NCBI RefSeq assembly: GCF_032116555.1
Contig: NZ_CP134951.1
Span: forward strand, 1 to 64,000
From: Halobaculum sp. XH14
Lineage (GTDB): Archaea; Halobacteriota; Halobacteria; Halobacteriales; Haloferacaceae
Length of the DNA stretch: 64,000 nt
Reading direction: 5' to 3'
A program made the position numbers and the translations under genes. The notes below the pieces were generated by a model. It saw nothing but the letters and a program-made list of their open reading frames with translations, was not told where the DNA came from and searched no databases. Below are positions 28,192 through 63,665 of the stretch, piece after piece (positions within the stretch are counted from its first letter, which is position 1; each line of letters starts with the position of its first letter).

Positions 28192-28262
28192 AGACCGGGT
28201 CGGCCACCACATCGTTCCGCTCCGATAGCCGATCAGGGGGGGAGAAACCGTCCGGGGCTCCG

Positions 28263-28574: not shown

Positions 28575-28745
28575 CGGAGATCCCTCCAAAATTGCAGGCT
28601 GGTAACAGGGAATAATTCTGCTAACATGCTGATGTACGACCCGTAGTGAGTATCTGCTGTACTTTAAACTAACGAGATATCGTGGGTGCCTCGGGCGGGT
28701 ATGGAGGCCGGCCGCCGACCGACGGACTGCGTCCGGTCGCCCGGC

Positions 28746-29813: not shown

Positions 29814-29839
29814 ACGCCGACTGGCAACGGACGACGGGA

Positions 29840-29852
29840 CCCTTGTAATGCG
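29840..29852 (-). promoter_or_regulatory. TTACAA promoter element before the GlmU-like gene
   Basis: CGCATTACAAGGG on the minus strand, about 28 nt before the ATG at 29813. Confidence 0.4.
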
Positions 29853-29929
29853 ACGGCTATCCCGACGGAATCTCGGGAACGGCTCCTGCCGGGACGAAAA
29901 CCAGGGACTGAGTCCCGACGCCGGCCGGC

Positions 29930-31282: not shown

Positions 31283-31303
31283 GGGTGGTGCTGTCCCAGC
31301 CGG

Positions 31304-31315
31304 ACAATAGTTATA
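31304..31315 (-). promoter_or_regulatory. TATAACTATTG promoter element of the mutase gene
   Basis: TATAACTATTGT on the minus strand, about 25 nt before the ATG at 31282. Confidence 0.45.
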
Positions 31316-31397
31316 CTGCTTATACTCCGACGCCCTCGTCGTCGGTCGCGACGTCGCGTTTCGGGCCGGAACCGCACCCGTTCCGCTCGTGTGGTGG

Positions 31398-32879
31398 CTA
31401 CGTGTCTGTCTCGGCGTCGTCGCCACCGGCGGAACTGTTGGCGGCACCCGAACCGGTCCCGCCGAGGTCCGCAGCTCCGGCGCCGTTGGCGTCACTTGCA
31501 CCGGGCTCGCCGACCTCGCCGATGCCGACGTCGGCGGGATCGACCTCGCCGGTGCCGGCGTCCCGAGCGGCGGCGTCCGCATCGGCGCCGCGGGGCTCCT
31601 CGACCGCTCGGCCGTGGTCCGCCGCTCGCCCGTGACCGTTGACCGCGGGGTCGCCGGCGAGTCGACCGTCCGCCCCGTCCTCGTCGTTCGACGGGCTGCG
31701 GAGGCCGGGCGGCCCCGAGCGCACGGGAGAGACGTCGGCGCCTCCGGCGGCCTCGTCTCGCGCCCCGCGACGACTGACGACCGCCGCGTCGGCGTCGACG
31801 GGCCCGACCGCGTCCCGGCCCGTCCGGTCGGCCCGGCGACCGCGGCGCGTGCCGCCGGTTCGCCGGTCCGCGCCGTTCAACGCCGCGTTCGCGTCCATGT
31901 CGAGCGTCATCGCCCACAGGGTCGAGAGCACGCCCAGCAACCCGACCAGAAGCGACGAGCCGAGCGCGGCCGCCGCCCCGCCGCCGGCGAGCCCCGGAAC
32001 CGTCGCGCCCGCGAGCGCGGCCGCCCCGGCGACCACGCCGAGGCCCCCGGCGAGCGTCGCCAGCGCGCCGACCGCGTAGGCGAACACGAGCGGGTGGAAG
32101 TCGAACAGGAGGTACTTCGTCCGCATGCGCCAGAGGAAGTTTCGGAGGAGCATCCCCGACACCTTCGGGATGTACGTCGAGTAGTCGATGTGGCTCTCCT
32201 CCTCGCCGTACGTCACGGGCCGCGGGACGTCGAGTACCCGGAGCCCGGCGACGTTGAGTTTGACGAGCAGGTCGTTGCAGTAGCCGTAGAACTCGTACAT
32301 CCCGTCGATGTCGGCCCGTTCGAGCGCCTCCAGCGAGATGGCGGTGTAGCCGCTCTGGGGGTCGCCGGTCGTCCAGTAGCCGCTGGCCATCTTCGTCAGC
32401 CCCGAGAGGACGGCGTTGCCGACGAAGCGGAACGCCGGCATCTCGTCCCGGTCGGTCCGGTTCAGGAACCGGTTCCCCTTGGTGTAGTCGGCCCGCCCCT
32501 CGACGATGGGGTCGAGCAGCGCGTCGAGCATCTCCGGCTCCATCTGGTCGTCCCCGCCCATCACGGTCGTCACCGCCATGCCGTCCTCGCGGGCGTGCCG
32601 GTAGCCGGTCTTTATCGCCCCGCCGACGCCGCGGTTCTCCTCGTGCTCGATGGGCACGACGCGCCGCGTGAACCGGCGCGGCCCGTCCGGCGCCGGCTCG
32701 AACGCCTCGTTGAGACGGCTCGCCGTCTCGCGGATCTCGGCCAGGGTGCCGTCAGTGGAGCCGTCGTCGACGACGTACACCCGGTCGACGAACGACGGCA
32801 CGCCCTCGAGGGTTCGGCCGACGAGTCCCTCCTCGTTGTATGCCGGGATGACGACCCCGACGGTGTGTCCTCGGTACAT
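31398..32879 (-). CDS. Family 2 glycosyltransferase (dolichyl-phosphate sugar synthase type) with long acidic tail
   Basis: 493 residues. The catalytic domain (about 1-230) has GVVIPAYNEEGLVG near the start, YVVDDGSTDGT near 35-45 and GGDDQMEPEMLDALLDPIVE near 108-127, as in polyprenyl-phosphate hexose synthases (DPM1/AglD-like). Two transmembrane helices follow at about 263-340. The last 150 residues are a low-complexity region rich in D, A, G and R, which is unusual for this family. It probably charges a lipid carrier with a sugar on the cytoplasmic face. It is divergent from a secreted PKD protein and adjacent to the glmM/glmU-like genes. Confidence 0.85.
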   Translation of the reverse strand: MYRGHTVGVVIPAYNEEGLVGRTLEGVPSFVDRVYVVDDGSTDGTLAEIRETASRLNEAFEPAPDGPRRFTRRVVPIEHEENRGVGGAIKTGYRHAREDGMAVTTVMGGDDQMEPEMLDALLDPIVEGRADYTKGNRFLNRTDRDEMPAFRFVGNAVLSGLTKMASGYWTTGDPQSGYTAISLEALERADIDGMYEFYGYCNDLLVKLNVAGLRVLDVPRPVTYGEEESHIDYSTYIPKVSGMLLRNFLWRMRTKYLLFDFHPLVFAYAVGALATLAGGLGVVAGAAALAGATVPGLAGGGAAAALGSSLLVGLLGVLSTLWAMTLDMDANAALNGADRRTGGTRRGRRADRTGRDAVGPVDADAAVVSRRGARDEAAGGADVSPVRSGPPGLRSPSNDEDGADGRLAGDPAVNGHGRAADHGRAVEEPRGADADAAARDAGTGEVDPADVGIGEVGEPGASDANGAGAADLGGTGSGAANSSAGGDDAETDT

Positions 32880-42599: not shown

Positions 42600-43655
42600 T
42601 CAGAGTCCCCGCCGCTGATACCGCCTCCGGCCGAACTTGTAGAGCGGCCAGGCCACCGGCGAGAGCCCCTTCTCCATGCTGAACAGCGGGACGGCGCGCG
42701 CGCCGTACTTCTGCTTGAACCCGAACACCGAGTTGCGGAAGTGAGCGCCGGTCTTCCCGAACCCGTACTCGTCGAAGCCGTGCTCCATGCCGAACTTAAT
42801 CGCGTGCTCGTGGAGCAGTTCCGACGGGTGGTACTGGTAGTTCGACGCGTCCGGGACGGCCGAGAGCCAGTGGTGGAGCACCGACGCCTCCTCGTCGAGC
42901 AGGTGGACGTAGCGGCCGACCTCGCGCCCGTCGACGACGGCCGTGAACACCCGGACCCGGTCGCCGAACTCCTCGGCCAGCGACTCGAGGAAGGCGCGCG
43001 GGAGCACCGTCCCGTCCACCCGCTCCATGTTCGCCACGTACGGCTCGTAGGTCGCGTCGAGGTCGTCGCCGAGCCGGGAGACCTCGACCCGGTACTCCTG
43101 CTCGTGGGCCTCGCGGAGGTCCTTGCGTCGCTCCTTGTCCATCCGCGAGCGGACCGACTCCCAGTCGCCGTCGATGTCGAGTACGAACAGGCAGGTGTGG
43201 AACGTCGGCTCGTAGCCGCGCCCCTGGAGTTGCTGGCCGTAGCGGACGTTCGTCAGGTCGTGGGACTCCAGCCGGTGGAACACGACCCCTCGGCCGACCG
43301 ACGATTCGAGGCCGTCGAACAGCAGGTCCAGCGACTCGCGCTCGTCGGTCAACAGCAGCGGGCCGCCGAAGCCGGGCGAGGAGGAGGTCACCATCCGCAG
43401 CGGCGGGTCCGAGGGCAGGGGGTCGGTGACCGTGTCGGGCAGCGGGAGCTCGCGGAGCACGTTCGGCAGCACGGCCACGGGGTTGCCCTTCTTCTCGACG
43501 ACGACGTGGCGACCCTCCTCCTCGAACCCGTCCTCGAGCGCGCGGATCCACTCGTGTCTGTGGAACAGCGTCCCCCGTTCCGACTGGGAGACGACGTGGT
43601 TCCACTGGTTCTCGTTCACGTCGGCGACGGTGCGGTGGGCGCGGAACGCTGTCAT
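42600..43655 (-). CDS. FemAB-like aminoacyl/acyl transferase (GNAT fold), copy 1
   Basis: 351 residues. It has the two-GNAT-domain layout of FemAB-related proteins: an N-terminal part with SERGTLFHRHEWIRALEDGF, central DKERRKDLREAHEQEYRVEV, and the C-terminal signature HPSELLHEHAIKFGMEHGFD followed by YGFGKTGAHFRNSVFGFKQK. In bacteria such enzymes add amino acids to cell-wall precursors; in haloarchaea they often sit in polysaccharide clusters with unknown acceptor. The protein at 49573-50580 is a second member of the family. No promoter is close; a CATTACAATG element lies about 165 nt upstream. Confidence 0.82.
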   Translation of the reverse strand: MTAFRAHRTVADVNENQWNHVVSQSERGTLFHRHEWIRALEDGFEEEGRHVVVEKKGNPVAVLPNVLRELPLPDTVTDPLPSDPPLRMVTSSSPGFGGPLLLTDERESLDLLFDGLESSVGRGVVFHRLESHDLTNVRYGQQLQGRGYEPTFHTCLFVLDIDGDWESVRSRMDKERRKDLREAHEQEYRVEVSRLGDDLDATYEPYVANMERVDGTVLPRAFLESLAEEFGDRVRVFTAVVDGREVGRYVHLLDEEASVLHHWLSAVPDASNYQYHPSELLHEHAIKFGMEHGFDEYGFGKTGAHFRNSVFGFKQKYGARAVPLFSMEKGLSPVAWPLYKFGRRRYQRRGL

Positions 43656-46508: not shown

Positions 46509-48350
46509 CTAGGCCCCGTCCCCGTCGATGAGATACTGCCGGAGGCCGTCGTTCGCCCGGATCCTGTTCACGCCGGGCGTCGTCTCGAGCGCCCTGAAGC
46601 TCGCGGCGTCGTACCGGAAGCCGTCGTAGAGGCGCACCTCACGCTCGTAGTCCGCGTCGTTGACGATCAGATACCCCTGGTCCTCGAACCGGTCGAGGTA
46701 GCCCTGCCCCCTGAAGCTCGTGCCGTTGATCCCCTCCCGGTAGCCGGGGAAATCGAGGGTCGTCGTGGCCCGCTGGGTGCCGTACTCGGCGTCGACGTAG
46801 CGGCGCGGCCCGCCGCGGATCCCGACGAACGGCGTGCCCTCCTCCCGGTGCTCGAACGCCTCGGCGAAGCCGTCGATGCGGGTCTCGGTCACCTGGTCGT
46901 TCGGCTGGTACGTGTACGGCGAGCTGTGGTAGGCAGCAGCCCCCACCGGCACCATGACCAGGAACAGCACCACGAGCACCACGCGCGTGTCGGTCCCGAC
47001 CCGACCACCGCCGTACGCGCGGACGGCCCTGGCCAGCCCGACCGCGGCGAGGATCGTCACCGGCACCATGATGAACCCCTGATACCTGAAGTACTGGTCG
47101 CCCGCGGAGGCGACGAGGAACAGGAGGAACAGCCCGAACAGCGGCACGAGCGCCGCGGCGACGTAGACGAGCAGCGAGGTGACATCAGTCCGCTCCTCGC
47201 GGAGCCGGCCGGCGATCAGCGCGACGATCAGCCCGCCGGCCAGCAGCGAGAGCACCACCCCCGGCAGGAACAGTTTAACGAACAGCGAGGGGAGGCTCCC
47301 GCCGACGGCGACCAGCGACGTCCCCTTCGACGCGACGACGGTCCCGGCCGAGGAGCCCTCGAACACGATGCTCGTGATGGTGGCGACGATGGCCCCCTGG
47401 ACGCGCTCGAAGCGCGGCGCCCAGAGCAGGAACGCGACCGCGAGGACCCCGGTCTGTGCGTACAGCGGCCGATGGGCGGTGATGGGATGGTCCGTCGTTC
47501 GTGCGCGGTACAGCACCTGCACGAGCGCGATGGCGCCGAAGAACAGCACGACGTTCAGCGCCTGCTGGGGGTGGACCAGCACCACCGCGCTGGAGGCCAG
47601 CGCGAGCAGGATGCCGACGGCGGTCACGCGGTCGCCGGCCGCCCCGCGCCGGACCGCGGCGTCGGCCGACGCGCGGAGCGGCCTGGTGCTGTATCGGAGC
47701 ACGAGGTACAGCACGAACGGGAAAAAGAGGATCGCCTGGCTCGTGGGGTGTGCGAACGGGTGGACCGAGACGCCGTTGACCGGCGCGAGCAACAGCGCCG
47801 AGAGGACGCCCAGCGTGACCGCGAGCCGCGAGTCGTCGAGCAGCCTGACACACAGCGGGACGAACAGGAGGAACACGAGCGTGTAACAGACGATGGTGAC
47901 GAGCATCAGCGCGACGCGGACGGACAGCCCCGTGACGGCGGCGACGAAGACGGCCGTGCTGTGGACGCCCGGGTAGAGCAGGTTCACCGGCGTGAGCGTC
48001 CCCGACGCCAGCTCGCGCGCCCACCCGAGGTGGCTCAACGCGTCGCCGGAGCCGTAGAAGTAGTAGCCCCGGAGCAACGGCATCGTGACCAGCGCGAGGA
48101 CGGTCGCGCCGGCCAGCAGGACGCCGGCGTTCCCGAGCCGATCCGGAACCTCCCCGAGCAGCGCGACCGTGACCCCGGCCGCGAGCGCGACGCAGAGACA
48201 CGCCCAGACGGCGGGCGGCGTCGCCGCGTACAGCGACAGTTCGTATCCCGTCGGCGGCGCGCGGCGCGCGAGCAGCACCGCTGCCAGCAGCGCGAGAAAT
48301 CCGACCGTCAGCCCGACTTTCGAGCGGCGATGTGAGTTCCTTCCTGACAT
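46509..48350 (-). CDS. Large polytopic membrane protein of glycan clusters
   Basis: 613 residues from the ATG at 48350 (MSGRNSHRRSKVGLTVGFLA). In-frame GTG codons at 48389 and 48401 give longer versions. It has about 12-13 transmembrane helices, a luminal-type motif YFYGSGDALSHLGWARELAS near 95-114, and a soluble C-terminal domain of about 130 residues (from QPNDQVTETRIDGFAEAFEH). The general plan is that of GT-C fold glycosyltransferases or oligosaccharide-handling proteins, and the DALSHL region may supply the acidic residue. Not firmly assigned. It precedes the flippase without a gap. A CCATAACTAAG element lies upstream. Confidence 0.75.
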   Translation of the reverse strand: MSGRNSHRRSKVGLTVGFLALLAAVLLARRAPPTGYELSLYAATPPAVWACLCVALAAGVTVALLGEVPDRLGNAGVLLAGATVLALVTMPLLRGYYFYGSGDALSHLGWARELASGTLTPVNLLYPGVHSTAVFVAAVTGLSVRVALMLVTIVCYTLVFLLFVPLCVRLLDDSRLAVTLGVLSALLLAPVNGVSVHPFAHPTSQAILFFPFVLYLVLRYSTRPLRASADAAVRRGAAGDRVTAVGILLALASSAVVLVHPQQALNVVLFFGAIALVQVLYRARTTDHPITAHRPLYAQTGVLAVAFLLWAPRFERVQGAIVATITSIVFEGSSAGTVVASKGTSLVAVGGSLPSLFVKLFLPGVVLSLLAGGLIVALIAGRLREERTDVTSLLVYVAAALVPLFGLFLLFLVASAGDQYFRYQGFIMVPVTILAAVGLARAVRAYGGGRVGTDTRVVLVVLFLVMVPVGAAAYHSSPYTYQPNDQVTETRIDGFAEAFEHREEGTPFVGIRGGPRRYVDAEYGTQRATTTLDFPGYREGINGTSFRGQGYLDRFEDQGYLIVNDADYEREVRLYDGFRYDAASFRALETTPGVNRIRANDGLRQYLIDGDGA

Positions 48351-48404
48351 GTTCGGCTCCCCATCCGGACGTGGGTTCTCGTCATACACCGACCACGTCA
48401 CGGG

Positions 48405-50794: not shown

Positions 50795-51826
50795 TCACGT
50801 GGCGGCCGCGTCCGTGACCAGGTCGACGATGTGGGCCGTCACGTCGACCTTCTCGTCCAGCAGTTTCCGCCGCCGCCGCTCCCAGCGCTCGCCCGCCTCG
50901 GGGTCGTCGGCGAGTTCGAGGACCGTTTCGACGAACGCGGCGCTCTCCCGGCAGGTCGTGATGAGCCCGTGCTCGTGGAGTTCGCGGAAGTTGCCGAACT
51001 CCTCGTCGTAGGGGTTCAGCCGGACGCTCGGCGTGGCGAGCAGCGCAGCTTCGGTCGCCATCGTCCCGGAGTCTCCCGCGTACAGGTCCGCGTGGGCCAG
51101 TAGCTGGTGGAGGTCCTCGGGCGGCACGGGAAGCTCGCGGTCCGCCAGGTCCGGCGGGAGCGCTCCCTCGCTCGACACGTACACCGGCATGCGGTCCTCG
51201 ACGCGCTCGATCAGGGACCGCTTCTCGTCGGTCGAGAGGCTCCGGTGGCCGGCGTCGTGGTGGGCGTCCATGGCGACGAACCGAAAGACCGCGTACGGCT
51301 GGTCGGGGTCGACGCCCGCCTCGCGGAGCACGTCGGGGTCGCGCTCGAACCGGTCCGGGTGGAGGTACGCGAGTTCGTGGAACCCGTCGTACCGGCGCTG
51401 GGTCGCGCCCAGGTCGCGCTCGAACCGGGCCGGCGTGCAGACGACGCTGGCGAAGGGGATCGTGACACGGTCGACCAGCCGGGTCTGTTCGGTGTCGTTG
51501 AAGACGACGTTGGGGACGCCGAGCAGCCACGAGACGTGCGCGGCCGCCGGGTTGAGCATGCTGACGACCACGTCGGGGTCGAACCGACGGGCGAGCCGCA
51601 GGAGTCGAACCTCCCGTGCCATCCACTCGCCGACCAGCCCCGGGCCGCCCCCGCCGCGCTCGGACAGCGGCGTGTGCTCGAACCCCTCCGCGTCGAGCAG
51701 ATCCGTCGTGACGTCCTTGACGCGCGAGGCGATGTGGATCTCGTGGCCCGCCGCCGAGAGCTCCTCGGCCGCGTGTTTGAACAGGTGGACGTGCGCCGGG
51801 TGGTTCACGTCGAACAGCGCGCGCAT
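50795..51826 (-). CDS. DUF354-family (GT-B-like) glycosyltransferase
   Basis: 343 residues from MRALFDVNHPAHVHLFKHAA at 51826, the characteristic opening of DUF354 proteins. Further hallmarks are GVPNVVFNDTEQT near 95-107 and the late DLYAGDSGTMATEAALLATP. The family has the fold of UDP-GlcNAc 2-epimerases and GT-B glycosyltransferases and is common in archaeal surface-glycan clusters. It follows the four-gene sugar-acid operon by 88 nt and may use, or epimerise, its product. The exact reaction is open. Confidence 0.8.
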   Translation of the reverse strand: MRALFDVNHPAHVHLFKHAAEELSAAGHEIHIASRVKDVTTDLLDAEGFEHTPLSERGGGGPGLVGEWMAREVRLLRLARRFDPDVVVSMLNPAAAHVSWLLGVPNVVFNDTEQTRLVDRVTIPFASVVCTPARFERDLGATQRRYDGFHELAYLHPDRFERDPDVLREAGVDPDQPYAVFRFVAMDAHHDAGHRSLSTDEKRSLIERVEDRMPVYVSSEGALPPDLADRELPVPPEDLHQLLAHADLYAGDSGTMATEAALLATPSVRLNPYDEEFGNFRELHEHGLITTCRESAAFVETVLELADDPEAGERWERRRRKLLDEKVDVTAHIVDLVTDAAAT

Positions 51827-51914
51827 CAGTCCACCCGCGGGTGGACGGGACGCGGCTGATCGCCCGGCGTCAGGCCGGCAGCGCGCGCCCGGCGGCCGCC
51901 GCGCGTCCGCGCCG

Positions 51915-53351
51915 TCACCGCCAGCCCCTCCCCACCGTGTAGTGGGGGTGGTCGGCGCCGCCGAGGTCGACGCTGTCCCGGCCGTCGACGACCACCGTGG
52001 GCTCGTCGAACGCCGTCCAGTCGACCGCGTCGAACTCGTCGTGGGCGGTGACGACGACCACGGCGTCGACGTCACGGTCGTACATCTCCTCCAGCGGCAC
52101 CGTCTCGGCGTCGAACCCGTCGGCGTCGACGAGCGGGTCCGCGCCGAACACGGTCGCGCCGTGCTCGGAGAGCGTCGAGCAGACGCCCAGCGCCGGGCTG
52201 GCGCGCGTCTCCTTCACGCCCGCCCGGTAGGTGAGTCCGAGGACGAGCACGCGCGCGTCCGCCAGCGGACCACCGGCCGCGTGCGGGCCGTCGTCCGGGT
52301 GCGAGTCCCCGTTCGCGCGCGGCTCCCCGTCGGCGGGGACGACCCCGCCCGCCCGGAGTCCCTCCGCGACCTTCGCGGCGACGAAGCCGGGCATCGCGTC
52401 GTTCACCTCGCGCGCGGTCTCCAGGAACGGCGCTGGCGACTCCAGCCAGTTGATGAGGAAGTACGGGTAGTACGGGATGCAGTGGCCGCCCACGCCCGGG
52501 CCGGGCGTGTGGATGTCACAGAACGGCTGGGTGTTCGCGGTGTCGATGGCCTCCCGGACGTCGATCCCAAGCTCGTCGGTGAGCCGGCCGAGCTCGTTCG
52601 CCAGGGCGATGTTCGCGTCGCGGTACAGCCCCTCGAACACCTTCACCGCCTCGGCGGTGGTCGCGTCCGACACCGGCAGCACGTCGTTGTCCACGAGCGC
52701 CTCGTAGACGACGCGCGCGCTCCGGGTGCTCTCGTCGTCGACGCCGCCGACGACCTTCGGGTGCGCGCCGCGGACGTCCCGGAGCGCGCGCCCGCTGGAG
52801 GTCCGTTCGGGACAGAACGCCAGGCCGAACTCCCCGCGCCGGAGGCCGCTTTGCTCCTCCAGCAGCGGGAGCACGACGTCGCGGCAGGTCCCCGGCGGGA
52901 CGGTGGATTCGACGACCACGAGGTCGCCCGGGTACAGCCCCTCGGCGACGCCCTCGACGGCCGCCTCAAGCGTCGAGAGGTCCGGCTCCTTCGTCTCGGT
53001 GACGAGCGTCGGCACGATGAGGACGTGGACGCTCGCGTCGCGGGCGGCCGTGGCCGGGTCGCTCGTCGCCGTCAGCGAGCCGTCGGCCGAGACGTCGGCG
53101 ACCGCCTCGGGCAGTCCGGGCTCGCGTTCGACGTGGCTCTCGCCGGCGTTGATCGACGCCACCACGTCCGGGTCGACGTCGACGCCGGTGACGTTGCCGC
53201 ACGTCTCGGCGTAGACGGTCGCCAGCGGGAGCCCCATCTTGCCGAGGCCGTAGACGGCCACCGGCACCTCGCCGTTCACGAACGCCGCCCGCCTGGCCTC
53301 GTCGTCGAGGTCGGAGCCGTACAGCGACCGGATCCCGGATCGGGTCGTCAC
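51915..53351 (-). CDS. UDP-N-acetyl-hexosamine 6-dehydrogenase (WbpA/WecC type)
   Basis: 478 residues from a GTG at 53351 that overlaps the previous gene by 4 nt. N-terminal NAD domain: PVAVYGLGKMGLPLATVYAE near 30-49. The middle holds FCPERTSSGRAL, and the catalytic cysteine is in GPGVGGHCIPYYPYFL near 290-305. The C-terminal UDP-binding domain has GLTYRAGVKETRASPAL. It oxidises C6 of a UDP-HexNAc to the carboxylate with two NAD. The family is about 420-440 residues; extra length comes from an N-terminal extension and an acidic insert (DGEPRANGDSHPDDGPHAAG). It is the last gene of a four-gene overlapping set. Confidence 0.92.
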   Translation of the reverse strand: MTTRSGIRSLYGSDLDDEARRAAFVNGEVPVAVYGLGKMGLPLATVYAETCGNVTGVDVDPDVVASINAGESHVEREPGLPEAVADVSADGSLTATSDPATAARDASVHVLIVPTLVTETKEPDLSTLEAAVEGVAEGLYPGDLVVVESTVPPGTCRDVVLPLLEEQSGLRRGEFGLAFCPERTSSGRALRDVRGAHPKVVGGVDDESTRSARVVYEALVDNDVLPVSDATTAEAVKVFEGLYRDANIALANELGRLTDELGIDVREAIDTANTQPFCDIHTPGPGVGGHCIPYYPYFLINWLESPAPFLETAREVNDAMPGFVAAKVAEGLRAGGVVPADGEPRANGDSHPDDGPHAAGGPLADARVLVLGLTYRAGVKETRASPALGVCSTLSEHGATVFGADPLVDADGFDAETVPLEEMYDRDVDAVVVVTAHDEFDAVDWTAFDEPTVVVDGRDSVDLGGADHPHYTVGRGWR

Positions 53352-54331
53352 GTCGGCACCTCCGTCTCCGCCCCCGGCCGCTCCCGACCGGCGGCGATGT
53401 CGTCGATGGTCCGGGCCACCTCCACGGCGCGGAGGCCGTCCTCGGCGGTGACCACCGGCTCCGCCCCGTCGCGCGCGGCGGCGACGAACGACTCCAGTTC
53501 GGCCTTCAGCGGTTCGCCGTTCTCGACGATGGGCCGCTCGACGACGCTCTCGACGCGCTCGCGCACCGCGCCGTCGTTCTCGATGTACGCCGGGGCGGTG
53601 TGTCGGTGGATCTCGACGGACTGGTTCATGTAGTCCACGCGGACCCGGCACTCGCGGGCGGTGATCCCCAGCTTCCGCACCTTCCGCTGGGTGACGCGGC
53701 TCGCCGTGAGGTCGGCGACGACGCCGTCGTCGAACCGGCAGGTCGCGGTGGCGTAGCGGTTGCCGGCCGCGCCCGCCGCGTCCACCGCGACGGGTGCCTT
53801 CCCGAGCAGCGAGCAGACCACGTCGATGTCGTGGATCATCAGGTCGAAGACGGCCGAGTCCGCGACCTCCCGCTCGCGCGGCGGGCCGAGCCGCTGGGCG
53901 TCGAGCGCGAGCACCTCGACGTTCGGGACGATGTCCGCGAGCGCCCGCACCGCGGGGTTGAACCGCTCGATGTGGCCGACTTGGAGGACCAGGTCCTCGG
54001 CCCGCGCCCGCTCGGCGAGTTCTCGCCCCCGCGGGAGGTCCTCGACGTACGGCTTCTCGACGAGCGCGTGGGTGCCAGCGTCGAGACACCGCTCTAGCAT
54101 CGAGGGGTGTGCCGCAGTCGGGACCGCGACCGAGACGAGGTCCGCCCGCGAGAGCAGGTCCCCCGCCTCCCGCGCGACCGTGCCGTAGTCGCGGGCGACC
54201 GTCCGGGCGGCCTCGGCGTCGAGGTCGGCGACGCCGACGAGTTCCGCGTTCGGGAGCTCGCTGTACACCCGGGCGTGGTTGCGCCCCATGCTGCCGACGC
54301 CGACGACGCCGGCCGAAAGCGTCTCGCTCAT
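53348..54331 (-). CDS. Gfo/Idh/MocA oxidoreductase (WbpB-like UDP-sugar 3-dehydrogenase)
   Basis: 327 residues. Rossmann start VGVVGVGSMGRNHARVYSEL, EKPYVEDLPRGRELAERA with the EKP motif near 92-94, and the substrate-domain signature LMIHDIDVVCSLLG near 163-176, which matches the WlbA/WbpB group that oxidises C3 of UDP-GlcNAc-uronate. Overlaps both neighbours by 4 nt. With the adjacent aminotransferase it would install an amino group at C3. The assignment is by context; other sugar oxidoreductases share the fold. Confidence 0.88.
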   Translation of the reverse strand: MSETLSAGVVGVGSMGRNHARVYSELPNAELVGVADLDAEAARTVARDYGTVAREAGDLLSRADLVSVAVPTAAHPSMLERCLDAGTHALVEKPYVEDLPRGRELAERARAEDLVLQVGHIERFNPAVRALADIVPNVEVLALDAQRLGPPREREVADSAVFDLMIHDIDVVCSLLGKAPVAVDAAGAAGNRYATATCRFDDGVVADLTASRVTQRKVRKLGITARECRVRVDYMNQSVEIHRHTAPAYIENDGAVRERVESVVERPIVENGEPLKAELESFVAAARDGAEPVVTAEDGLRAVEVARTIDDIAAGRERPGAETEVPT

Positions 54332-55449
54332 GCGCTCCGGCGGCCTCGATCGGCCGCCAGTTCCGGGGAGTCTCCGGTCGTGTACGATTCGACGGCCGCA
54401 CAGATCCGTCGGAGGTCGTCGGTCGAGAGCGACGGATGGACCGGCAGCGAGAGCACCTGTTCGGCGGCGCGCTCGGCGACCGGGCAGTCGGCGTCGAAGC
54501 CCTCGTAGGCCGGCTGCTCGTGGATGGGAACCGGGTAGTAGATGCCCGATCCGACGCCCGCGTCGGCCAGGTGCTCGCGGAGCCCGTCGCGGTCGTCGTG
54601 TCTGACCGTGTACTGGTGGTAGACGTGGCGCGACCCCGGCGGCTCGTTCGGCGTGATGACGCCCGCGTCCGAGAGCCGCTTCGTGAGGTAGGCGGCGTGT
54701 CCGCGCCGGGCGATGGTGTGGTCCGTGAGCTTCGGGAGCTGTGCCCGCCCGATGGCCGCACAGAGGCTCGTCATCCGGAAGTTGTGGCCGACCTCGCCGT
54801 GTTCGTACCCGGAGATCCGGCCGTGGTCCGCGAAGCGGGCGACCCGCTCTGCCAGCTCCGCGCGGTCGGTCGTCACCATCCCGCCCTCCCCCGTCGTCAT
54901 GTTCTTCGTCGGGTAGAAGGAAAAGCAGGCGGCGTCGCCGAACGAGCCGACGCGCCGGCGGTCGAACTCCGCGCCGTGGGCCTGCGCGGCGTCCTCGACG
55001 AGCGCCAGGTCGTGCTCGTCGGCGATCTCGCGCAGGTGGTCCATCGCGGCCGGCAGGCCGTAGAGGTGGACCGCGAGGATCGCTTCCACGTCGTCGCGCT
55101 CGCGGACGACCGCCTCCACCTCGCGCGGGTCGAGCGTGAACGTCGAGGGGTGGACGTCCGCGAAGACGGGTTCGGCGCCCGCGAGGCGGACGGCGTTCGC
55201 GCTGGCGACGAACGAGAACGGCGTCGTGACGACCGCGTCGCCCTCGCCGATCCCGAGCGCCTCGAACGTGGCGTGGAGCGCGGTCGTCCCGTTCGTCGTG
55301 GCGACGCCGTGGGCCGCCCCACAGAACTCGGAGAACTCGTCCTCGAAGCGCCGGACCTCCTCGCCGTCGGCGAGCTGGCCGCTCTCGAGGACGCGCTGGA
55401 CGCCCTCGCTCTCGGCGTCGCCGATCCGGGGGTTCGCGATGGGGATCAT
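54328..55449 (-). CDS. DegT/DnrJ/EryC1 PLP aminotransferase (WbpE-like)
   Basis: 373 residues from the ATG at 55449. Typical sugar aminotransferase motifs: IPIANPRIGDAESEGVQRVL, NGTTALHATFEALGIGEGDA, VEDAAQAHGAEF near 162-173 and the PLP-lysine in YPTKNMTTGEGGM near 192. The lysine lies two residues after Pro-Thr as usual. It would aminate a 3-keto nucleotide sugar with glutamate as donor. Linked by ATGA overlaps to the acetyltransferase before and the oxidoreductase after it. Confidence 0.93.
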   Translation of the reverse strand: MIPIANPRIGDAESEGVQRVLESGQLADGEEVRRFEDEFSEFCGAAHGVATTNGTTALHATFEALGIGEGDAVVTTPFSFVASANAVRLAGAEPVFADVHPSTFTLDPREVEAVVRERDDVEAILAVHLYGLPAAMDHLREIADEHDLALVEDAAQAHGAEFDRRRVGSFGDAACFSFYPTKNMTTGEGGMVTTDRAELAERVARFADHGRISGYEHGEVGHNFRMTSLCAAIGRAQLPKLTDHTIARRGHAAYLTKRLSDAGVITPNEPPGSRHVYHQYTVRHDDRDGLREHLADAGVGSGIYYPVPIHEQPAYEGFDADCPVAERAAEQVLSLPVHPSLSTDDLRRICAAVESYTTGDSPELAADRGRRSA

Positions 55450-56021
55450 CGCTCCGTGTTCCCCCCCTGGAGCCGCTCGGGCAGCGGCTGGTGTTCGGCG
55501 GGCGAGCCGACCGCGAGGGTGTCCGCGGGCACGTCCTCGGTGACGACCGCGCCCGCGGCGACGAACGCGCGCTCCCCGACGGTGACGCCCGGGAGCACGG
55601 TCGCGTTCGCGCCGACGGTCGCGTCGTCCTCGAGGGTCGGCCCCTCCAGTTCGACCTCCTGGCGCAGCGGGTAGTCGTCGTTCGTGAGGATCGCGCCCGG
55701 GCCGACGAACACCCGGTCGCCGACGGTGGTGTTCGTCGGGAGGTACGCGGCGGTCTGGATGCTCACCTCGTCGCCGACGGTCGAGCCCCCGTCGATGACC
55801 GCGCGGGTGCCGACGAGCACGTCGTCGCCGACGACGGTGTCCTCGCGCACCAGCGCGTCGTGGCCGGTCGTGAACCCCTCGCCGATCTCGACGTCGCCGT
55901 ACACGACGGTGCCGCGCCGGATCGTCGCGCCCGGCCCGATGGTAGGCGTCGAGCCGTCCGGGTCGCCGAGCGTGACGTTCGGGTGGACCTCGGCCCCGTC
56001 GCCGAGCGTCGCGTTCGTCAC
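55446..56021 (-). CDS. Hexapeptide-repeat sugar N-acetyltransferase (WbpD-like)
   Basis: 191 residues from the GTG at 56021 (VTNATLGDGAEVHPNVTLGD). The frame stays open another 48 codons to an ATG at 56165, but that ATG is part of a TAACAATGG promoter element. The chain is a left-handed beta helix of hexapeptide repeats, with the likely catalytic histidine in FTTGHDALVRED near 60-70 and a C-terminal ADTLAVGSPAEHQPL. It would acetylate the new C3 amine. First gene of the four-gene overlapping set, so the acetyltransferase-aminotransferase-oxidoreductase-dehydrogenase order is a functional unit. Confidence 0.88.
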   Translation of the reverse strand: MTNATLGDGAEVHPNVTLGDPDGSTPTIGPGATIRRGTVVYGDVEIGEGFTTGHDALVREDTVVGDDVLVGTRAVIDGGSTVGDEVSIQTAAYLPTNTTVGDRVFVGPGAILTNDDYPLRQEVELEGPTLEDDATVGANATVLPGVTVGERAFVAAGAVVTEDVPADTLAVGSPAEHQPLPERLQGGNTER

Positions 56022-56161
56022 TGGCGGCCTCCGTCCGGCCCGGGCGTCCGGGCCGGCTGGCCGCTCCTCCGTCCGGTTCGTCGGGTCTGTGTGTGTGTCC
56101 GAGACATGGATGCGGACTGCACGGTCGCTCCCGGCAGTATCGGGTCTTGACCGGCATCGGA

Positions 56162-56172
56162 CCATTGTTATG
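56162..56172 (-). promoter_or_regulatory. CATAACAATGG promoter element of the sugar-acid operon
   Basis: On the minus strand, about 140 nt before the GTG at 56021, implying a leader of roughly 110 nt if used. Confidence 0.4.
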
Positions 56173-57813: not shown

Positions 57814-58752
57814 TTACGCGGACTGGACGGCGTCCGTGTCGGCCAGCGCCTCGTAGCGCTCTCCGGGCGGGCCGATCCACGCGCCGAGCTCCCTCGCGTA
57901 CTCGATCAGCCGCCGGTAGAGCAGCCGCTGGTTCGGGTACTCGCGGTCGTTGAACTTGTTCGGGTGCCACAGCACGGTCATCACCGCGCCGTTCTCGGCG
58001 GCCTCCTCGAGCACCCGCTCACAGCCCGCCCACGCCGCCGCGAGCTCGTGTTCCGGGTCCGGCAGCGCGTTCTCCATGATCGTCAGCGGGAACACCACGA
58101 ACTCGTCGTCGAACGGCCGTCGAACGCCGTAGCCGTTCTCGAACCCGTACGTCGTACTCGACCCGAGCGAGGCGTCGTACGCCAGGCCGACGTCGGCCTG
58201 TCGCTCCCACGTCTCGGGCACCTCCAGGTTGAGGTAGTGCTGTCTCCCGCCGCGGACCTCGTGGCCGAGGACGCGTTCGAGCGCCGCCTTCTCGCGTCCG
58301 AGGCGGTCGCGGTCCGTGTAGGACTCGTAGGAGCCGTGGAGCCCGACCTCCCACCCGCGGTCGTCCAGTTTCCGGATCACGTCCACGATGTCGGGGTCCT
58401 CGAGCGAGTAGCGGCCGGCGTAGAGCTGCCAGCTCTTCGGGCTGAGCCACTCGCGGGGCGGCCTGTCGCGCAGGAGGTCCTGCTCGTTCAGGAAGTAGAA
58501 CGCCGACCTGACGCCCAGTTCCTCCTCCAGGGCCATCACCTCCTCGAACTGCCAGTACGGGTTGACGTCCGGGAGCAGCGTCCGAAGGTGGTAGGGGTCG
58601 CGTTCGGTCACCGCGTAGTACAGCGACTGGTACGTCTTGTACGGCCGGTCGACGTCGTGGGTCAGACACAGCGAGAACGAGTGCCCCTCGGGCACGCCGG
58701 CCCGTTCACCCATCCCGTCCGAACCGGCTCGTGTCGCTGGCCGGTCGTTCAC
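57814..58752 (-). CDS. NodB-like polysaccharide deacetylase
   Basis: 312 residues. FSLCLTHDVDRPYKTYQSLY near 26-45 carries the Asp-Val-Asp start of the NodB fold. Later, GLHGSYESYTDRDRLGREKA near 137-156 gives the His-x3-Ser-like metal motif, and VLWHPNKFND near 262-271 supplies the final histidine. This is the form common next to archaeal glycan genes. It would remove N-acetyl groups from a sugar, though the usual RPP loop is not obvious. Divergent from the PIG-L operon. Confidence 0.82.
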   Translation of the reverse strand: MNDRPATRAGSDGMGERAGVPEGHSFSLCLTHDVDRPYKTYQSLYYAVTERDPYHLRTLLPDVNPYWQFEEVMALEEELGVRSAFYFLNEQDLLRDRPPREWLSPKSWQLYAGRYSLEDPDIVDVIRKLDDRGWEVGLHGSYESYTDRDRLGREKAALERVLGHEVRGGRQHYLNLEVPETWERQADVGLAYDASLGSSTTYGFENGYGVRRPFDDEFVVFPLTIMENALPDPEHELAAAWAGCERVLEEAAENGAVMTVLWHPNKFNDREYPNQRLLYRRLIEYARELGAWIGPPGERYEALADTDAVQSA

Positions 58753-58976: not shown

Positions 58977-58990
58977 CCCATAACAAATAA
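58977..58990 (+). promoter_or_regulatory. CCCATAACAAATAA promoter element of the PIG-L operon
   Basis: About 26-36 nt before the ATG at 59016, the leaderless spacing. Confidence 0.5.
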
Positions 58991-59015
58991 ACGAGGTTCG
59001 GTACTCCGGGTCGAA

Positions 59016-59636
59016 ATGGACGTTGCTGTCCTCAGTCCGCACACGGACGACAGCGAGCTGTCCGCGGGCGGGACGATCAACCGGCTGCAACGGGACGGCC
59101 ACGACATCCACTACGTCGCCTTCTCCACCTGTGACGAGTCGCTCCCCGCGGGGAAACAGGGGGTGCTCCGCCGCGAGTTCGAGAGCGTCATGGAGTTCGT
59201 CGACCCGACCGAGTACTACGTCTTCGACTACGTGGTCCGGCGGTTCAACGAGCGCCGGCAGGACATCCTCGAGGACCTGGTCGCGCTCCGCGAGGAGCTC
59301 GATCCGGACCTCATCATCGGCCCCTCGACGAGCGACCACCACCAGGACCACACGGTCGTCGCAAAGGAGATGATCCGGGCGTTCAAGAGCGGGCCCAGCA
59401 TCATCGCGTACGAGCAGCCCTGGAACACGACGTCGTTCGACACCGACCTGTTCTCCCCGCTCACGGCGGCGGATCTGGACTCGAAGCTGACACAGCTCTC
59501 CCAGTACGACAGCCAGATCGAGAAGGGCCGGCCGTACTTCGAGGAGGAGTTCATCAGGGGGCTGGCCCGGGTCCGCGGGCTCCAGGGGAACGCGCGCTAC
59601 GCCGAGGCGTTCGAAGTGGTCAGGTGGTTGCTGTGA
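59016..59636 (+). CDS. PIG-L family sugar N-deacetylase
   Basis: 206 residues from the ATG at 59016 (MDVAVLSPHTDDSELSAGGT). The PIG-L motif, usually AHPDDE, reads SPHTDDSE here, and the second metal motif is present as SDHHQDHTVV near 107-116. The upstream in-frame extension is ignored because the promoter CCCATAACAAATAA sits there. PIG-L enzymes remove the acetyl group from GlcNAc-linked substrates (as in GPI, mycothiol and bacillithiol synthesis). First gene of a three-gene operon; its TGA overlaps the next gene by 4 nt. Confidence 0.87.
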   Translation: MDVAVLSPHTDDSELSAGGTINRLQRDGHDIHYVAFSTCDESLPAGKQGVLRREFESVMEFVDPTEYYVFDYVVRRFNERRQDILEDLVALREELDPDLIIGPSTSDHHQDHTVVAKEMIRAFKSGPSIIAYEQPWNTTSFDTDLFSPLTAADLDSKLTQLSQYDSQIEKGRPYFEEEFIRGLARVRGLQGNARYAEAFEVVRWLL

Positions 59637-60712
59637 GCGAGCTGACGGTGCTCGTCACCGGCTGTGGCGCGCCGGGGTTCCCGGGGACCCGCTGGTCGCT
59701 CCACGAAAACGGGGTCGACCGCGACGTGCGCGTCGTCGGCACGGACGTCCGGACCGAGCAGGCCGGCCGCCATCTCGCCGACGGGTTCCACCAGGTCCCC
59801 CCGGCCGACGACGAGGGGTTCGTCGACGAACTCGTCGACGTCTGCACGACCGAATCCGTCGACGTCGTCCTCCCGCAGGTGACACGGGAGCTCCCGGTGC
59901 TGTCGGCCCGGACGGCGGCGTTCGAGCGCGTCGACGCCGCGGTCGCCGTCTCCGGGGCGGACGCCATCGCGCGCGCGAACGACAAGAAAAAACTCATCGA
60001 GGTCTGCGAGGAGGTCGGCGTCCCCGCGCCCGAGACGTACGCCGCGGAAACGATCGGCGAACTGGAAGCCGCGTGCGACCGTCTCGGCTACCCCGAGACG
60101 CCGGTCGTCGTCAAGCCGCCGGCCTCGAACGGGAGCCGGGGGGTGCGAATCTTCGACGAGGACAGGGACCGGAAGCGGGCGTTCTACGAGGAGAAGCCGA
60201 CCGGGCTCTACAGCACGCTCGGCACGTTCCGGGAGACGATGGGCGAGTCGTTCCCCCGCCTGCTCGTCATGGAGCACCTACCGGGCGCGGAGTTCACCGT
60301 CGACGCGTTCCACCCGCCCGACGGCGGCGAGCCGACGGTGGCGATCCCCCGCCGGCGCGACGAGGTCCGCGGGGGCATCAGCTTCCGGAACACCGTCACC
60401 GAGCACGGGGCGATCATCTCCCACGCCGAGCGGCTCGCGCGCGAACTCGACCTGTCGTACGCGTTCGGGTTCCAGTTCAAGCTCGACGGGGACGGGACGC
60501 CGAAGATCCTGGAGTGTAACCCCCGGATCCAGGGGACGATGGTGACGAGCACGCTCGCGGACGCGAACGTCACCTACGCGGCGGCCGCGAGCGCGGCCGG
60601 CGAGCCGGTGCCGTCGTTCGACCCCGCCTGGGACCGCTCGTTCTACCGGTACTGGGGCGGCATCGGTACGGCGGACGACGAGGTCGTCGGGAACATCGGC
60701 GAGCAACCATGA
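59633..60712 (+). CDS. ATP-grasp ligase (CarB-like)
   Basis: 359 residues from the GTG at 59633, which overlaps the deacetylase stop. N-terminal pre-ATP-grasp domain: LTVLVTGCGAPGFPGTRWSL and VVLPQVTRELPVLSARTAAF. ATP-binding features: VVVKPPASNGSRGVRIFDED near 156-175, LLVMEHLPGAEFTVDAF near 207-223, and the metal-binding ILECNPRIQGTMV near 290-302. These enzymes join a carboxylate to an amine or other nucleophile with ATP. Coupled to a sugar deacetylase, ligation of an acyl or amino-acid group onto a freed amine is plausible, but no acceptor can be read from the sequence. Confidence 0.87.
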   Translation: MSELTVLVTGCGAPGFPGTRWSLHENGVDRDVRVVGTDVRTEQAGRHLADGFHQVPPADDEGFVDELVDVCTTESVDVVLPQVTRELPVLSARTAAFERVDAAVAVSGADAIARANDKKKLIEVCEEVGVPAPETYAAETIGELEAACDRLGYPETPVVVKPPASNGSRGVRIFDEDRDRKRAFYEEKPTGLYSTLGTFRETMGESFPRLLVMEHLPGAEFTVDAFHPPDGGEPTVAIPRRRDEVRGGISFRNTVTEHGAIISHAERLARELDLSYAFGFQFKLDGDGTPKILECNPRIQGTMVTSTLADANVTYAAAASAAGEPVPSFDPAWDRSFYRYWGGIGTADDEVVGNIGEQP

Positions 60713-61365
60713 AGCGGTGGCGGCGCTACGACGGGCGGCTCGCCAGCGGCCTCTGGCACGTCCACACCGAGCGGACCGACGGCGAGAACTCCGTCACCGA
60801 ACTCGTCGCGTTCGCGGACGACCGCGGGTTCCCGCTGCTGGGCATCACCGAACACGTCCGGCGCGAGCCCACGTACGACTTCGACGCGCTCTACGAGGAG
60901 GGAAAGCGGGCGGCCGCGGCCGCGGACCTGGAGTGTGCGGTCGGCTGTGAGGCCAAGGTGCTCGACGCCGACGGGACGCTCGACGCATCGGAGGGGACGC
61001 TCGACCGCGCCGACGTCGTGTACGCCGCCTACCACGGGACGCCGTTCTCCAGGGACGAGTACCTCGAATCGGTGCACGCGATGCTGGAGAACCCCGCGGT
61101 CGACGTCTGGGCCCACCCGTGGTCCTACGCCGACGGGCAGGGGTACGAAATCGACGCGGACGAGCGGGCGGCGGTCCTCGAAGCGGTGCGCGAGAACGAC
61201 GTGCTGTTCGAACTGAACGTGCAGCGTCCGCCGGACGGGTTCGACCCGCGCACGGAACTGCGCGACGTCCGGACGGTCGTCGGCTACGACCTGCACGACC
61301 TCGACCGGTGGCAGGGAAAAAACGAGCGCGTGGGCCGGAGTGAACCGGAAGACATCGAGAAGTAG
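60709..61365 (+). CDS. PHP-domain phosphoesterase-like protein
   Basis: 218 residues. PHP metal motifs in order: LWHVHTERTDGENSVTELVA near 15-34, GITEHVRREPTYDFDALYEE near 45-64, CAVGCEAKVLDADGTLDASE, VYAAYHGTP, VDVWAHPWSYAD and the C-terminal GYDLHD. The fold hydrolyses phosphoesters or related bonds with two to three metals. It overlaps the ATP-grasp gene by 4 nt, so deacetylase, ligase and PHP protein belong to one pathway. Substrate unknown. Confidence 0.85.
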   Translation: MKRWRRYDGRLASGLWHVHTERTDGENSVTELVAFADDRGFPLLGITEHVRREPTYDFDALYEEGKRAAAAADLECAVGCEAKVLDADGTLDASEGTLDRADVVYAAYHGTPFSRDEYLESVHAMLENPAVDVWAHPWSYADGQGYEIDADERAAVLEAVRENDVLFELNVQRPPDGFDPRTELRDVRTVVGYDLHDLDRWQGKNERVGRSEPEDIEK

Positions 61366-61724: not shown

Positions 61725-63665
61725 TCAGGCGTTCCGGTTGACGTTCACTTCCGCGTCGCCGTCGACGGTCATTGCCGTCAGGCTGCCCGAGAAGTTGTAC
61801 GCGTCGACGCCGTTGCCGACCACGCCGATGACCTTCCCGTCGCGGGCGATGTCGTTCATCTCGTCCCACGGCATCGAGTCGTCCGTGACGACGCTCTGCT
61901 CCTGGTTCCGGTTGACCTGGCCCGACACGGTGAACGTGTACTGGGTGCCCTGGCCGGCGCCTTCGACGAGGAGGACGTGCGGCGTTTCCCCGCCGTCGCC
62001 GCCGTCGGAACCGTCGCTGCCGTCCGAGCCATCGGACCCGTCGGATCCGTCACTGCCGTCGCTCCCGTCGGATCCGTCACTGCCGTCCGACCCGTCCGAC
62101 CCGTCGCCGCCGGAGTCGTCCGAGCCATCGGAACCGTCGCTTCCGTCTCCGCCGCTGCCGTTGTTGCCGTCGCCGCCGGCACCGACGACCTCGTCGATGG
62201 GCATCGTCGTCCCGTCGACCGACACGTCGACCGCGTAGCCGTCGTCCTTGGCGTAGCCCAGCACCTCGCCGTTGAACTCGAACGAGTCCAGCTCGTCGGG
62301 GCCGAGGTCGTTGACCTTGATCACCGTGTTCCCGTCGGCGTTCGTGCCGATCGAGTCGGGCGAGTCGCTGCCGGACTCAGCATGCTCGCCGAGCTTCGCC
62401 TCGCCGGAGACGACGAAGTCGAGGTCGAAGTCGCCCGGGATCGCCGAGTCCGAGATCGGGTTGTCGGGCCCGCCGTGCAGGACGAGCGTGTGGTCGTACT
62501 CGGTCGGCTGCTGGTCCTCGTCGTCGCCGACGTCGCCCGAGGACGTGCCGTCCCACGGGCCGATGTCGGGGCCGACCCCCTCGATCTCGTCGGCGACCGC
62601 GTAGCCAGTGACCGCCGAGGGCAGCGGGAAGGAGACCTCGCCGTCGGCCGCGAGGTCGGACTCGCTGACGCCGCCGGCCTGGAACTCGTAGCTGCCGGGG
62701 CCGGTGGCGACGCAGTTCTCGACGGTGACGTCCATGCCGCCGCCGGACTTGTCGCGGACCAGCACCTGGTCCGTCTCGTTGTAGAACGTGCAGTTGCGGA
62801 TCGTGACCGACGAGCCCGCCGCCTCGTCGTGGAGCTCGATCGGGTTGCTCGCGCCGTCGACGTCGAGGTTGATGAAGTAACAGTTCTCGATGAGGAGGTT
62901 GCCGGGTTCGCGCAGCCGCACGCCGCGGGCGTTCGGAACGCCCTCCGCGTCCGACCGCACGTCCCGCGTCACCGCGATGAGGCTGTTGCGGACCACGGTC
63001 GTCTCGCTCATCGGGTCGCTCGTCCGGTGGCCGACGCGGATGTTGGCGATGTTGTTGTTGACCGCGGCGCAGTTCTCGTACAGCATCGGGATCTTGTCGG
63101 TGTACGCGCCGTTGTTGGCCATCCACGCCCACGCGGAGTTACGGACGACGGCGGGCTCGCTGCCGTTCGATCCGTCGGGGTTGAACAGCGCTCGATCCTC
63201 CAGCTGGCCGCCGCCCTCGGGCCAGATGAACCCGTTCAGCTCGCTGCCGCGAACGAGGTCGAGTCCGGCCTTCGGTTCGGGGTTCTCCCCGCGGACGACG
63301 ATGTTCTCGACGCGCCCGGCGACGGTGCCGTCCATCGTGTCGGACTCGAGGTTCAACACGACGTCGCCGGGTTCGCCCCCGCCGACGAGCGCGTCGCCCG
63401 AGCCGATCGAGAGCGACTCCCAGGTGTACTCGCCCGGTTCGACGACGACCTCGCCGTCGGGGCTGGCCGTGAACGACGACTGGGCCGCCGCCCCGCCGGT
63501 GAGCGTTCCCACGGATCCCAGCGTCACCGCCGCGGCCGCCGCGCCCTTGAGGACCGAGCGCCGGGAACTGCTCCCCGGCTCCCCCGCGGTCGACCCTTCG
63601 GTATCGCGCTGTTCGTCGGTAACGTCTCCCTTCTCGGCTGCCTCGTCGTTGTGGCGTTTCGCCAT
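61725..63665 (-). CDS. Tat-exported beta-helix protein with Ser-Asp-Gly linker
   Basis: 646 residues. The twin-arginine signal SSRRSVLKGAAAAAVTLGSV lies near 33-52. Residues of about 60-360 are right-handed beta-helix repeats (FTASPDGEVVVEPGEYTWES, VNNNIANIRVGHRTSDP, NARGVRLREPGNLLIENCYF), paralogous to the lipoprotein at 56400-57752. Two related beta domains follow (DHTLVLHGGPDNP... and PHVLLVEGAGQGT..., each with FxVSG and a late FxG), separated by a Ser/Asp/Gly linker of about 50 residues (roughly plus 61990-62160). Probably secreted and glycan-associated. Confidence 0.82.
   Translation of the reverse strand: MAKRHNDEAAEKGDVTDEQRDTEGSTAGEPGSSSRRSVLKGAAAAAVTLGSVGTLTGGAAAQSSFTASPDGEVVVEPGEYTWESLSIGSGDALVGGGEPGDVVLNLESDTMDGTVAGRVENIVVRGENPEPKAGLDLVRGSELNGFIWPEGGGQLEDRALFNPDGSNGSEPAVVRNSAWAWMANNGAYTDKIPMLYENCAAVNNNIANIRVGHRTSDPMSETTVVRNSLIAVTRDVRSDAEGVPNARGVRLREPGNLLIENCYFINLDVDGASNPIELHDEAAGSSVTIRNCTFYNETDQVLVRDKSGGGMDVTVENCVATGPGSYEFQAGGVSESDLAADGEVSFPLPSAVTGYAVADEIEGVGPDIGPWDGTSSGDVGDDEDQQPTEYDHTLVLHGGPDNPISDSAIPGDFDLDFVVSGEAKLGEHAESGSDSPDSIGTNADGNTVIKVNDLGPDELDSFEFNGEVLGYAKDDGYAVDVSVDGTTMPIDEVVGAGGDGNNGSGGDGSDGSDGSDDSGGDGSDGSDGSDGSDGSDGSDGSDGSDGSDGSDGSDGGDGGETPHVLLVEGAGQGTQYTFTVSGQVNRNQEQSVVTDDSMPWDEMNDIARDGKVIGVVGNGVDAYNFSGSLTAMTVDGDAEVNVNRNA
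61990..62160 (-). repeat. Ser-Asp-Gly coding minisatellite
   Basis: A 9-bp period (GSD triplets) inside the exported beta-helix gene encodes a linker of about 50 residues between two beta domains. Period and in-frame nature suggest length variation between strains. Confidence 0.7.

Follow-up and report, generated by a model that had tools for sequence, protein, structure and literature searches.

In the Wbp/Vim system of Porphyromonas gingivalis and Tannerella forsythia, a diacetamido uronate is proposed to be de-N-acetylated at C2 and its amine acylated with serine or glycine; VimA has been shown experimentally to set the amino acid, and VimE is described as putative (PMC7468200). In Campylobacter jejuni, the ATP-grasp enzyme Cj1438C forms an amide with serinol-phosphate and the HAD phosphatase Cj1435 then dephosphorylates the product (PMC12409886, PMC11800397). 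Bacillithiol and mycothiol biosynthesis (BshA-C, MshA-D) use a PIG-L family deacetylase to bare a glucosamine amine, to which an amino acid is then ligated, and the mycothiol pathway needs a phosphatase that has itself not been identified (PMC7278568). N-glycyl-glucosaminyl bridges have been reported from the wall of Halococcus morrhuae (PMC4187196, citing Steber and Schleifer 1979), and the literature that we read names no enzymes for this N-glycyl-glucosamine. Here we describe a triplet of overlapping genes for a PIG-L deacetylase, an ATP-grasp ligase and a PHP-family enzyme, which recurs in archaea and bacteria and may exchange N-acyl groups on sugars; it lies in the window, a 64,000-nucleotide stretch of haloarchaeal DNA (positions 1 to 64,000 of contig NZ_CP134951.1).

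The window resembles the Wbp/Vim system in that it has genes for a deacetylase resembling VimE and for a FemAB-like protein in addition to a Wbp set. However, VimE is of the CE4 type and VimA of the FemAB/N-acetyltransferase type, whereas the triplet comprises PIG-L and ATP-grasp enzymes plus a phosphatase, and family searches placed none of the three triplet proteins with VimE or VimA. An earlier note, made from the sequence of the window, had recognised nothing comparable beside a Wbp-like set. As regards the enzymes this stands, the Wbp/Vim proteins being unrelated to the triplet; as regards the chemistry it does not, given the swap of acetyl for serine or glycine proposed for P. gingivalis (PMC7468200) and the VimE-like gene beside the triplet. 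The Cj1438C/Cj1435 pair is similar in combining ATP-grasp amide formation on a glycan with a partner phosphatase that acts on the product. It differs in that the ATP-grasp is TupA-like, a uronic carboxylate is the acyl donor, the phosphatase is a HAD instead of a PHP enzyme, and the text that we read describes no deacetylase; no TupA model was found among the Pfam matches of the window ATP-grasp up to E 1. The bacillithiol and mycothiol pathways lack a PHP enzyme, and their ligation step falls to BshC and MshC, which have no relationship to ATP-grasp enzymes; that the ligases are unrelated the earlier note had rightly said. Assignment of the window PIG-L protein as BshB or MshB was rejected on the curated equivalog cutoffs (37 versus 182.5 bits for BshB1, 16 versus 224 for MshB). 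The N-aminoacyl glucosamine of the halococcal wall is the type of product predicted for the triplet.

In our literature search we came across no account of PIG-L, ATP-grasp and PHP as a set, which is weak evidence with most subscription papers out of reach, and no archaeal enzymes assigned to the acetyl-to-other-acid replacement chemistry of archaeal cell walls. Among systems with experimental data, the Wbp/Vim pathway and the Cj1438C/Cj1435 pair come nearest, each with a ligase unrelated to that of the triplet. Two candidates, the Shewanella sfmE ATP-grasp and eukaryotic TTL-esterase fusions, were judged not to be the same system.

The three-gene operon

The operon and its two 4-nucleotide overlaps had been noted before, and their coordinates proved exact (Table 1): the junction is GTGA between PIG-L and ATP-grasp and ATGA between ATP-grasp and PHP, and the start codons of all three genes are consistent with aligned homologues. 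The AT-rich stretch ATAACAAATAAA upstream is a plausible candidate for a haloarchaeal promoter element. Pfam searches matched the PIG-L protein to PF02585 (E 6e-17; 62.9 bits versus a gathering score of 28.2), the ATP-grasp protein to PF15632 (ATPgrasp_Ter, E 3e-30) and PylC-like_N (E 5e-11), and the PHP protein to PF02811 (E 4e-10).

The three enzyme classes are represented with their catalytic residues intact. The H-x-D-D...H metal site of PIG-L (His9, Asp11, Asp12 and His112) is invariant in 15 aligned sequences, as are, across the aligned homologues, Lys161 and the E-x-N-P-R motif of the ATP-grasp (Glu294, Asn296, Pro297, Arg298) and all nine canonical PHP metal ligands (His17, His19, Asp24, His49, Glu81, His109, His136, Asp194 and His196). 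The nearest solved relatives of PIG-L are diacetylchitobiose deacetylase and BshB. AlphaFold models were obtained with pLDDT confidence of 91 for PHP and 89 for ATP-grasp. The nearest folds to the former are the PHP domain of PolX (a 3'-5' exonuclease), YcdX and histidinol-phosphate phosphatase, and to the latter, by Foldseek, 2pn1, PurK, PurT, GARS and L-amino-acid ligases. PurK, PurT, GARS and the amino-acid ligases act on amines or sugar-phosphate amines, which we count in favour of N-acyl exchange.

Conservation of the triplet

The earlier note had proposed a neighbourhood search that would tell against its proposal if the triplet was not conserved. We scanned GTDB contigs and phylum samples for the ATP-grasp subfamily (profile score of at least 375) and found it in 23 distinct genomes, which are not phylogenetically independent samples. 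In 21 of the 23 a PIG-L gene immediately precedes the ligase gene on the same strand, and in 21/23 a PHP gene immediately follows it; overlaps with the ligase gene are usual. Carriers among the archaea include Natronorubrum, Salinibaculum, Methanoculleus, Methanosarcina, Methanoregula, Methanothrix, Methanomassiliicoccus, Lokiarchaeota and Thaumarchaeota, and among the bacteria Symbiobacteriaceae, Rhodothermales, a Bacteroidota genome (L099, drawn from the phylum sample that also contains Rhodothermales) and Eremiobacterota. The triplet is thus conserved across domains, and because the trio recurs in about 20 distantly related genomes its linkage is not due to chance. In Methanomassiliicoccus the PIG-L gene adjoins the ATP-grasp gene but is inverted, and a very divergent haloarchaeal copy (L043) is rearranged to PHP, ATP-grasp, PIG-L with all three still together.

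Pairwise distances between the proteins are correlated (r = 0.96 for PIG-L/ATP-grasp, 0.78 for ATP-grasp/PHP, and 0.76 for the third pair), and none of 2000 permutations reached the observed correlations. On the few intact contigs seen, the PHP subfamily was beside ATP-grasp every time. Within haloarchaea the triplet is rare, being present in 3 of 391 genomes: that of the window, G165 and the rearranged G141.

Exchange of partner enzymes around related ligases

In the Bacteroidota genome L099 a HAD phosphatase (Pfam HAD_2) takes the position of PHP. A sister group of haloarchaeal ATP-grasps likewise has a HAD gene starting at the ligase stop in 10/10 loci, the assignment being Pfam-checked for L045 and L110 and motif-based in some loci. 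In all seven sister loci that were examined in length, including Haloarcula sp. GH36, the order is DegT, YdjM, NodB-type deacetylase, GT2, ATP-grasp, HAD, with the deacetylase one gene away from the ligase and the glycosyltransferase between them. The GH36 plasmid cluster (L110) is similar to the triplet in that a related ATP-grasp (approximately 41% identity) is clustered with a deacetylase and a phosphatase, but the last two are of other folds and neither PIG-L nor PHP is present. No characterisation of this DegT-NodB-GT2-ATP-grasp-HAD cluster was found in the literature.

Two loci, L073 and L074, carry a second, distinct ATP-grasp next to the triplet operon, beside a PHP of its own (PF02811 + PHP_C). 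In L074 the second module includes a deacetylase that Pfam clearly assigns to the NodB type (PF01522/DUF3473); its counterpart in L073 has no Pfam match and is related in sequence to other NodB-like proteins. This second type of PHP adjoins ATP-grasp in 16/16 best matches from 167 genomes (L134-L149), about half of which also have an adjoining NodB-like deacetylase. The second PHP/ATP-grasp pair is widespread in methanogens.

All four combinations of PIG-L or NodB with PHP or HAD therefore occur around ATP-grasp ligases. This exchange of partners argues for a deacetylase, ligase, phosphatase logic, and is the main reason that we accept it. The HAD fold is rich in phosphatases, and because HAD genes take the place of PHP beside related ligases we read PHP as a phosphatase; by analogy with this replacement, it would probably be a phosphomonoesterase.

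Proposed function

We propose, with a probability of roughly one half, that the triplet works as a self-contained cassette for N-acyl exchange on sugars. PIG-L would take the N-acetyl group off an amino sugar, either a nucleotide- or lipid-linked sugar of the GlcNAc type or, in the window, possibly the 2,3-diacetamido uronate from the Wbp-like set. The ATP-grasp enzyme would then activate a carboxylate, most probably that of an amino acid or a small hydroxy acid, as acyl phosphate and form an amide with the amine thus exposed. PHP would finally hydrolyse a phosphate monoester on the product, the phosphate having entered with the acyl donor or being one on the sugar; both a phosphorylated donor (phosphoserine or phosphoglycerate, for example) and a sugar phosphate would account for a phosphatase. 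The modified sugar would be built into the surface glycan of the neighbouring cluster.

Deacetylation, ligation and dephosphorylation had been suggested in this order by the earlier note. The order is supported by the cross-domain trio, the replacement of PHP by HAD and of PIG-L by NodB, and the sugar-uronate neighbours. The GlcNAc substrate, the joining of a carboxylate to the amine made by PIG-L, and the phosphate on the product we infer, as we do the order itself. More tentatively, the triplet may be one version of a modular N-acyl-exchange system common to archaea and bacteria, in which an ATP-grasp ligase works with a deacetylase of PIG-L or NodB type and a phosphatase of PHP or HAD type, the folds being interchangeable; the version in the window could then comprise hitherto undescribed enzymes that make N-aminoacyl amino sugars (N-glycyl ones, for example) for the surface glycans of archaea.

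Genomic setting of the triplet

The triplet sits at the right side of a glycan cluster, on a 196 kb contig (C3) of a 3.7 Mb haloarchaeal genome. As the earlier note had seen, this cluster includes a Wbp-like set, with the dehydrogenase, Gfo/Idh, DegT and acetyltransferase genes (Table 1) to the left of the triplet, together with glycosyltransferases, a GT2 and a flippase. VimE, the putative UDP-2,3-diacetamido-glucuronate deacetylase of P. gingivalis, is the best named relative of the divergently transcribed NodB-type deacetylase, whose score against the VimE model is 65 bits versus a curated cutoff of 440 and whose relatives are annotated as polysaccharide deacetylases; it is possibly linked to the triplet in function. 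The FemAB-like protein matches TIGR03019 (pepcterm_femAB) with E 1.7e-19, but at 70 versus a cutoff of 260 bits.

Table 1. Features of the triplet and its surroundings in the window.
Feature	Position	Strand	Remarks
PIG-L (LmbE) family N-deacetylase	59016..59636	+	ATG start 59016; stop 59634-59636
ATP-grasp carboxylate-amine ligase	59633..60712	+	PF15632, PylC-like N-terminal domain; GTG start; stop 60710-60712
PHP-family metal-dependent phosphoesterase	60709..61365	+	ATG start 60709; stop at 61365
AT-rich stretch ATAACAAATAAA	~58980..58991	+	some 25-36 nt before PIG-L ATG; from sequence only
NodB/CE4-type deacetylase, VimE-like	57814..58752	-	divergent from triplet; NF053580 (VimE) E 4e-18
Hexapeptide acetyltransferase	55446-56165	-	Wbp-like set (whole set 51918..56165)
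DegT aminotransferase	54328-55449	-	Wbp-like set
UDP-GlcNAc 3-dehydrogenase-like Gfo/Idh	53348-54331	-	Wbp-like set
Nucleotide-sugar dehydrogenase (UDP-N-acetyl-sugar dehydrogenase)	51918-53246	-	Wbp-like set
DUF354 GT-B-like protein	50795..51832	-	family directly upstream of PIG-L in other triplet loci
630-residue protein	46509-48401	-	no Pfam match
FemAB-like protein	42600-43655		
Beta-helix-type protein	61725-63665	-	next to triplet; long GSDGSDGSD linker

Most copies of the triplet lie within surface-glycan clusters. Uronate-sugar, glycosyltransferase (GT2) and flippase genes recur near them, relatives of the Wbp-like set accompany the triplet in four loci (L030, L031, L107 and L108), and one locus additionally has a WbpG/HisH/HisF-like set. 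DUF354 directly precedes PIG-L, mostly overlapping it, in seven loci of methanogens and related archaea.

A search of plasmid DNA found syntenic relatives of the window cluster. Most window genes from 43.9 to 63.7 kb match a plasmid cluster of Halobaculum halophilum at 60-87% identity; none of the three triplet genes is matched in that cluster, and the triplet is therefore an accessory addition to the glycan cluster. In the matching Halobaculum cluster the VimE-like gene lies between the GNAT and DUF354 genes, and in the window it is beside the triplet instead. The Halobaculum cluster (L109, 11474-16212) also has, between DUF354 and the nucleotide-sugar dehydrogenase, one gene for a hypothetical protein that is NodB-like and another for a type I phosphodiesterase, neither of which is there in the window (50795-53246); these two genes were possibly replaced by the triplet.

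Other genes around the triplet were recorded. The 630-residue protein is kept in Halobaculum (70%) and in the triplet locus L043. The beta-helix-type protein is apparently secreted and may belong to the cell surface or act on glycans. The contig has its own genes for UDP-GlcNAc supply, and one for a GT2, at 24880-32879 (GlmS, PGM/PMM, a GlmU-like nucleotidyltransferase and an AglJ-like glycosyltransferase); an assignment of gene w31398 as an epimerase was rejected, this being a GT2 glycosyltransferase. No obvious glycan genes were seen in the 20 kb past the window, as judged from the listing of open reading frames only. In other archaea, relatives of the PIG-L protein without ATP-grasp pair with WbqC or, mostly, with a family of about 490 residues (L115, L116, L119, L121-L124 and L127) that is without a Pfam match and weakly resembles BshC, the bacillithiol ligase (TIGR03998, E 0.02-0.05); the latter pairing may represent a bacillithiol-like pathway in archaea.

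Discussion

Several observations weigh against the N-acyl-exchange cassette, whose functional scheme is a prediction from genomes. The Lokiarchaeal genome L033 has ATP-grasp and PHP with no PIG-L of the subfamily anywhere in the genome, and the Thaumarchaeal copy L034/L106 is without an adjacent PHP. The PIG-L subfamily often occurs without the ligase, being adjacent to it at only 5 of 17 places in a 167-genome sample; this lack of exclusiveness weakens an obligate pairing from the PIG-L side. Copies in Rhodothermales (L038), Eremiobacterota (L035) and Natronorubrum (L042) have no glycan genes nearby. As to partner exchange, L099 is the one genome that combines PIG-L, ATP-grasp and HAD, and its PIG-L and ligase genes are separated by a gap; for the sister loci, the DegT aminotransferase is an alternative to the NodB enzyme as the source of the amine.

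The main rival, which we nevertheless consider unlikely, is a scheme like that of C. jejuni, in which the ATP-grasp would join a uronic C6 carboxylate to a phosphorylated amine (such as serinol-phosphate or ethanolamine-phosphate), PHP would dephosphorylate, and PIG-L would act at another position or step. Such a scheme has been shown experimentally for Cj1438C and HAD Cj1435 (PMC12409886, PMC11800397), and it accounts for the presence of a phosphatase more readily than plain ligation of an amino acid would; nucleotide-sugar dehydrogenases are, moreover, frequent neighbours of the triplet (L070, L043, L030, L031 and L107). It leaves unexplained, however, both the upstream PIG-L gene in 21/23 genomes and its co-divergence with the ligase at r = 0.96. 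Cj1438C is TupA-like, whereas the window ATP-grasp matches PF15632 and no TupA model, and no adjacent gene for serinol-phosphate or ethanolamine-phosphate synthesis was recognised. Next in rank, and also improbable, is a free small molecule, a low-molecular-weight thiol or similar, made by DUF354 as glycosyltransferase, PHP as phosphatase, PIG-L as deacetylase and ATP-grasp as amino-acid ligase. These steps would parallel mycothiol biosynthesis down to its unidentified phosphatase (PMC7278568). The PIG-L protein is related to BshB/MshB, some copies stand alone outside glycan clusters, and other archaeal members of its subfamily pair with the weakly BshC-like family (E 0.02-0.05). But it is surface-glycan clusters that hold most copies, DUF354 is not constant, the PIG-L scores fall far under the BshB and MshB cutoffs, and a triplet so rare and patchy (3/391 haloarchaeal genomes) is unlike a core redox cofactor.

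We give still less credence to PHP being a hydrolase or editing enzyme, such as an amidase or a phosphodiesterase on a nucleotide-sugar, with the remaining steps as in N-acyl exchange. The PHP superfamily includes non-phosphatases, and PolX exonuclease domains are among the nearest folds; YcdX and histidinol-phosphate phosphatase are also near, though, and HAD at the same gene position favours phosphomonoester hydrolysis. It is in our view very improbable that the triplet serves an unrelated pathway, such as one to the nucleoside-like metabolite suggested for Ter operons, and is simply carried along with surface-glycan clusters. In favour of this reading is the strong match to PF15632, a model named after the Ter biosynthetic ATP-grasp; yet the neighbours are glycan genes, and no Ter genes were recognised in the gene listings of any triplet locus, to which no Ter-specific profile was applied.

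If N-acyl exchange is indeed the function of the triplet, it would supply candidate enzymes for archaeal N-aminoacyl amino sugars, a product known chemically from the halococcal wall for more than 40 years, and the combination of deacetylase, ATP-grasp and phosphatase genes would serve as a genomic rule for finding such sugar modifications. It would also represent a third route by which amino acids or similar groups are placed on surface sugars, besides the FemAB-type (VimA) and TupA-type (Cj1438C) routes. In the Wbp/Vim system secreted proteins are attached through such groups, so the cassette could be relevant to the way in which surface proteins or polymers of archaea are linked.

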